Shown here piece by piece: positions 6,310 to 6,402 of a stretch of DNA of 64,000 nt; the first letter of the stretch is position 1; each line of letters opens with the position of its first letter. The stretch is from Glandiceps talaboti. Taxonomy: Eukaryota; Hemichordata; Enteropneusta; Spengelidae. The stretch is from the NCBI RefSeq assembly GCF_964340395.1, contig NC_135550.1:16721484-16785483 (forward strand), in the 5' to 3' direction. The notes under the pieces were generated by a model that saw nothing but the letters and a program-made list of their open reading frames with translations, was not told the origin of the DNA and did no database searches. The position numbers and the translations under genes are program-made.

Positions 6310-6402
6310 GAAGAAAATCAATTCGGGTTTTTCATTTCTACAAGCCTGTTTTGTGAGTAAATCACTCGTCAGGAGATGTTGATCCGACTTGATTTTCTTC
6401 TA
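6310..6402 (-). ncRNA. Hammerhead-ribozyme-like motif (minimal type I), probably from a Penelope-like element
   Basis: Read on the minus strand, the core is CTGACGA (6372-6366). Stem II is GTGA/TCAC with a 5-nt loop (6365-6353). AAAA stands where the family has GAAA (6352-6349). A 3-bp stem III, ACA/TGT, has a GGCT loop, and the NUH triplet is GTA (6341-6339). Stem I pairs 6373-6378 with 6338-6333 at five of six positions. An outer extension pairs GAAGAAAATCAA with TTGATTTTCTTC. Known family fact: minimal hammerheads with very short stem III occur in Penelope-like retroelements. The A at core position 12, normally the G acting in catalysis, suggests this copy is inactive. TA tracts flank it on both sides. 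Confidence 0.65.

Follow-up and report, generated by a model that had tools for sequence, protein, structure and literature searches.

A probable decayed pLTR insertion of a Penelope-like element in a (TA)n microsatellite of Glandiceps talaboti, and the paired ends of its relatives

The window analysed here is a stretch of 64,000 nucleotides from the hemichordate Glandiceps talaboti, in which a (TA)n tract is interrupted by a 100-bp pLTR fragment made of two arms (minus strand, 6409-6310; Table 1). A preliminary description, made from the letters alone, had ended this feature at 6402, an end that we move to 6409. Outside 6310-6415, no other piece of the same element (family 1) or of a second family described below (F2) was found in the window at E <0.3, and tblastn of the 721-aa frame carried by a relative, L071, gave no match in the window at E up to 1. 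Two further features of the window are a single 349-aa open frame that begins with RING-like Cys/His residues (12165-13214), which we take from its appearance to be an RNF41/NRDP1-type ubiquitin ligase, and a long minisatellite with units of 36-49 bp (42787-44047; TRF score 1224) that is unrelated to the hammerhead element.

Table 1. Parts of the pLTR fragment and its flanks, in window positions
Feature	Position	Strand	Basis or correspondence
Sense pLTR arm with hammerhead	6310..6383	-	Element ~2270-2343; matches the L071 element in blastn (93%, 74 nt)
Minimal type I hammerhead, stem I to stem I	6333..6378	-	Sequence, descriptor, covariance model R1
Hammerhead core CTGACGA	6366..6372	-	Sequence
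Second, inverted pLTR arm	6384..6409	+	Element 2327 to about 2352; end near site A
(TA)n target tract, one flank	6064..6309	.	Tandem Repeats Finder
(TA)n target tract, other flank	6409..6499	.	Tandem Repeats Finder

Read on the minus strand from 6409 to 6310, a 26-nt arm is followed by ATCAACATCTC-CTGACGA-GTGA-TTTAC-TCAC-AAAA-CA-GGCT-TG-TA-GAAATG and then by the remainder of the sense arm, which ends prematurely at ...GATTTTCTTC, where it abuts (TA)n; the hammerhead itself (6378-6333) opens with CATCTC and closes with GAAATG. The elements listed in the preliminary description—CTGACGA, a stem II of 4 bp, AAAA in the place of GAAA, a 3-bp stem III (ACA/TGT) with the loop GGCT, GUA at the cleavage position, and a stem I paired at 5 of 6 positions—can all be read in the sequence, and cleavage would be expected after A6339 (GUA^GA). 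The outer 12-bp pairing that had been reported beyond stem I is likewise present, its source being the second, inverted pLTR arm; this arm was matched by blastn at 94% over 32 nt, the final letters of which are TA, in agreement with the junction analysis. Minimal type I hammerheads of this kind were reportedly described in Penelope-like elements (PLEs) by Cervera and de la Pena in 2014. Position 12 of the core (6352) is A rather than G, as had also been noted. A CpG is altered by this change (CACGAAA to CACAAAA) and another by one of the stem I changes (GAGACG to GAAATG), and deamination would be the simplest cause of both. Because the core segments and three stems of a type I hammerhead are present except for G at position 12, we regard the window copy as a decayed member of its class, and with G12 lost it is probably inactive.

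The layout was evaluated with a descriptor of three stems that accepts R at position 12, which matched once in the 64-kb window and never in 100 dinucleotide shuffles, bearing out the description of a minus-strand hammerhead between TA tracts; with only G accepted at position 12, the same descriptor had no match in the window. The suggested check against the Rfam type I hammerhead models failed to support it: there was no match in the window at the gathering cut-off, the 23 matches to a 211-bp stretch at E up to 10 included no hammerhead (the best, a microRNA model, reached 31.9 bits, its cut-off being 119), and intact relatives likewise had no hammerhead match at the gathering cut-off or at E up to 10. 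Rfam models may not cover the minimal hammerheads of PLEs. Folding of the 93-nt minus strand gave -26.1 kcal/mol (z -4.5), a good value that is mainly due to the outer inverted arms; in the minimum-energy structure stem II is present, stems I and III are absent, and CCUG pairs with CAGG instead. When stretches lacking a second arm were folded, neither the 74-nt intact stretch (z 0.11) nor that of family 2 (z -0.30) was better than its shuffles.

A covariance model, R1, was built from six sequences of hammerhead families 2-5 of this genome, with family 1 left out. Across the 64-kb window, R1 ranked the window copy first (6334-6376, minus strand, 17.0 bits, E 0.014), a result that favours the preliminary description. 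It also recovered the family-1 hammerheads of 14 loci, 13 of them scoring 33.6 bits and the other 23.5, and those of 37 out of another 45 loci; in this larger search the window copy (L001) and L022 fell short of E 0.01. The share of these scores contributed by the core is not independent, as the training families were chosen by their CTGANGA...GAAA core. Two-sided changes were observed in 7 of the 11 pairs of the six-sequence alignment, a number equalled in 0 of 500 shuffles, with a single family-5 sequence, which came from a scan that demands paired stems, involved in all seven. With this sequence and one of the two family-3 rows removed, the covariation was modest, 3 of 11 pairs changing on both sides, a level reached by 22 of 500 shuffles, and covariation inside family 2 alone was weak (one pair with a double change).

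Relatives of the window copy were sought across 590 Mb in 47 contigs. The first similarity search (40 of 620 candidates scored) gave 213 matches, many consisting of TA alone; from these, 38 loci were chosen for the presence of a non-TA part. These loci contain 52 hammerhead rows, 40 of them identical to the chosen reference string and five, including that of the window, with G12A; a 35-nt hammerhead core was found in 737 copies genome-wide at up to two mismatches (reversed-pattern control, 0), and seven copies were exact except for G12A. The expectation that the genome would hold relatives with a GAAA core was thus borne out, and in these the CUGANGA and GAAA segments are joined by three stems, as in type I hammerheads generally. 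A descriptor scan of 87 loci yielded 131 matches, compared to one in 30 shuffle rounds of all loci, and is not explained by chance. A second pLTR family, F2, has a hammerhead of its own with a U-U mismatch at the place of the first stem II pair (2522 copies at up to two mismatches; control 0), and its pLTR lies 3' of an ORF with 51% identity to that of the first family, the anatomy being as in family 1. The matches of the descriptor scan include three more variants, here called families 3-5; the family-5 hammerhead lies at L053 (minus strand, from offset 715) and has a 6-bp stem II and an ACAG/CTGT stem III, with no TA flank in the stretch read. At L023, two hammerhead-like sequences stand head to head (614-656 on the minus strand and 665-707 on the plus strand; R1 43.8 bits) with CCGAAGA replacing CTGANGA, and may represent either a further variant family or decayed copies.

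Several relatives retain more of the parent element. At L035 and L038, the end of a coding frame that resembles a PLE endonuclease lies 5' of the hammerhead, and L071 contains a stop-free frame of 721 aa whose end lies about 105 nt 5' of the pLTR edge. Motifs read by eye in this frame are, in order, FDVVEFYPSI, YRDDG, TYIGL, RYRNH, and CNLC, presumably the reverse transcriptase (RT) and GIY-YIG marks of Penelope-like elements. Sequence searches of Pfam and PDB with the 721-aa frame found no RT and no GIY-YIG endonuclease match, and the protein assignment therefore rests on these by-eye motifs combined with the anatomy. The adjacent RT/GIY-YIG frames anticipated in the preliminary description appear to be represented by these coding ends and by the long frame of L071, with no Pfam domain match to go with them, and its attribution of the motif to a Penelope-type minimal hammerhead gains from the position of the relatives' pLTR beside an ORF with RT- and GIY-YIG-like motifs. 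For the EN-3'UTR piece, of which 40 among 131 candidates were scored, there are full-length copies at 98-100% identity, and the matches of a protein search (62 of 1865 candidates scored) include relatives that have long open frames and an identity near 50%. The pLTRs occur in both direct and inverted orientation with an optional tail, as in PLEs, and we infer the order pLTR-ORF-pLTR from L081, where the pLTR tail is contiguous with the start region of the ORF and continues into its 5' part.

Inverted arms flanked by TA could also be produced by a foldback DNA transposon of the MITE type, which would have terminal inverted repeats and TA as its insertion site, the likeness to a hammerhead being accidental. 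The arms here are unequal and variable, though, hundreds of copies retain the core, and shuffled loci almost never satisfy the descriptor (1 match in 30 rounds). We rejected this explanation, which we judge extremely improbable, on finding copies with identical termini that are joined to a long open frame with RT-like motifs. That the window instead holds the decayed remains of a pLTR-only insertion, made in a (TA)n microsatellite by a Penelope-like element with an endonuclease, is, taken together with the mechanism proposed below, highly probable.

We then considered where the arms end, using 58 loci (L001-L038 and L067-L086; there is overlap between L024 and L074, and the two units of L020 are near copies of each other). 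Of 104 arm ends, 51 fall at site A, between CTCAACA and TATACTCC, 51 at site B, between GACTTCC and TAACCTGC, and two elsewhere. Fully 94 of the 104 abut (TA)n, the remainder abutting CA, TACA, or other sequence, and the TA tracts look like a choice of target, one of the options raised in the preliminary description. Among 39 head-to-head cassettes, 36 combine one A with one B end, one is B+B, one is of another kind, and one—the window copy, which is tail-less in both arms and thus unlike the majority—is A+A.

As many of these loci had been picked for their likeness to the window copy, we repeated the A+B test without selection by similarity. Genome-wide, 435 A and 467 B ends in TA were counted at up to one mismatch, and the ends listed on contigs C1, C2, C4, C5, and C6 (74 A and 100 B) served as input; the list covers exact matches in TA, omitting mutated ends and those elsewhere, and the majority of its B ends lack a listed partner. 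Contig C3 had no place among the matches listed in three genome-wide pattern listings, which follow contig order to beyond C4, and may be odd or short. There were 43 neighbour pairs closer than 500 bp among the listed ends, and of the 37 that face outward, 36 were A+B, one was A+A, and none was B+B (P 2.8e-10 under independent 50:50 ends); the other six, in different orientations, comprised five A+B and one A+A. Seven of the nine head-to-head pairs in F2 combine an end at 72 with an end at 131-136, and both kinds of end were seen at two loci of a third family. The stretch from A to B measures 66, 61, and 61 nt by hand count in the three families and contains, by eye, a GAGCACT motif in each. 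The two-site layout recurs in at least three pLTR families of the genome.

The inner limits of the arms were also informative. In the junction analysis, whose script truncated a few arms that carry indels, 39 of the 78 arms extend to element positions 2262-2271, a 10-nt zone containing an initiator-like sequence, TCAGT. Perfectly palindromic centres occur at several loci (e.g., L025, L026, L028, and L031); that of L028 is joined at GTAC, and this locus is one of 11 among the 37 outward pairs that have the same 234-base span. Cassettes that stop inside the hammerhead include 7 of 15 with an identical total span of 57 bases, which suggests either a preferred stop or shared descent.

These limits bear on a further possibility, that of a non-autonomous retrozyme spreading as a small circular RNA excised by the hammerhead. 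Retrozymes carry type I hammerheads (PMC7761336), and the 737 hammerhead copies outnumber the EN-3'UTR candidates (at least 131). Against this, the fetched loci lack head-to-tail repeats bounded at the cleavage site, the units in the 39 cassettes end at A, at B, and mostly at the 5' edge of the pLTR, and the identical pLTR adjoins a PLE-like ORF, leaving the retrozyme very improbable. A 'cleavage wall', in which cleaved RNA serves as template, had been entertained from a pile-up of short arms just 3' of the cleavage site in the first loci; it was dropped because the selection of loci that resemble the window copy had created the pile-up, and genome-wide pattern counts gave 20 cassettes stopping just 3' of the cleavage site versus 15 inside the hammerhead. 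With that sole hint an artefact of locus choice, the arm-stop patterns retain no sign of ribozyme cutting in vivo.

The A+B rule fits reverse transcription primed from both ends of the cut DNA, one for each start site. Transcription start, cleavage, and priming are inferred from sequence patterns, and the steps might run as follows. The element RNA would start just 5' of the hammerhead, as suggested by the 39 of 78 arm stops and the TCAGT sequence, and the hammerhead, at the 5' edge of the pLTR, would cut RNA after GUA. The element protein would cut both strands of (TA)n DNA, an activity demonstrated in vitro for another PLE (PMC11167929). With the RNA as template, each cut end would then prime reverse transcription, one of them starting at site A (CTCAACA before TATA...) and the other at site B (GACTTCC before TAAC...); the RNA at both start sites reads UA and could thus pair with the TA end of the cut DNA. 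The two cDNA ends would finally join head to head, often via a palindrome, GTAC or AT, as seen at the observed junctions.

Inverted arms could be generated from one side as well, if a single cDNA folded back and copied itself, and self-priming of this type has been discussed for a rotifer Penelope (PMC3846280). The perfectly palindromic centres at the four loci named above would suit such a process, as would the 11 of 37 pairs with the span of such a palindrome. Fold-back predicts equal outer ends, whereas 36 of the 37 pairs have two different ends, and we consider it unlikely. We favour two-ended target-primed reverse transcription, as it accounts for unequal ends, inverted arms, and central palindromes by one process, and the window copy fits it as an aged, tail-less, truncated case. 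More tentatively, and with somewhat less than even confidence, we propose that PLEs can insert in no other way than from two sides: a single protein-RNA complex would prime one cut end at A and the other at B, the cDNAs would meet via a palindrome at the 5' end of the RNA, and UA/TA pairing would set the (TA)n target.

Much of this has precedent in known elements. With the minimal type I hammerheads of PLEs (PMC6155905, PMC7761336), those described here share the CTGANGA core, a short stem III, a location in the pLTR, and many dispersed copies; they differ in the G12A of the window copy and in the U-U at the first stem II pair of family 2. The Poseidon element of Anolis carolinensis, PAc (PMC11167929), shares the pLTR-ORF anatomy, the hammerhead, AT-rich targets, and two RT start sites inside the RNA, the stretch between which is its 'tail'; both target strands are cut and extended there, as is proposed here, and its hammerhead cleaves only with protein added. 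Unlike in PAc, the start sites here precede the presumed start of the ORF, and the UA next to them matches the (TA)n target, a proposed pairing that runs against the lack of homology between start site and cut DNA in that system (PMC11167929), and the tail measures 61-66 nt by hand count compared to the 30-40 cited there. In Penelope of Adineta vaga (PMC3846280), too, pLTRs are inverted and one arm of the two carries a tail, palindromes occur at the 5' end of the pLTR, and targets are AT-rich; its copy number is very low, in contrast to the hundreds here, and the main text of that paper does not use the word hammerhead. The literature surveyed, a partial set including parts of PMC11167929, PMC3846280, PMC6155905, PMC7761336, and PMC1564403, contained neither a count of one A plus one B end per cassette nor start sites matching a TA-repeat target.

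The component parts—two start sites, tail, inverted pLTRs, palindromes, and hammerhead—are therefore already known, and the interesting part is the A+B rule. The transposition of Penelope-like elements is little known (PMC11167929), and the in vivo role of their hammerheads has been called a mystery (PMC7761336). The hundreds of near-identical copies in this genome, many of them very short, provide many end-to-end records of single insertion events, and through the A+B rule the puzzling tail becomes a testable claim about two-ended priming; if the obligate two-sided reading is true, the old 'tail' would be the signature of the second primer.
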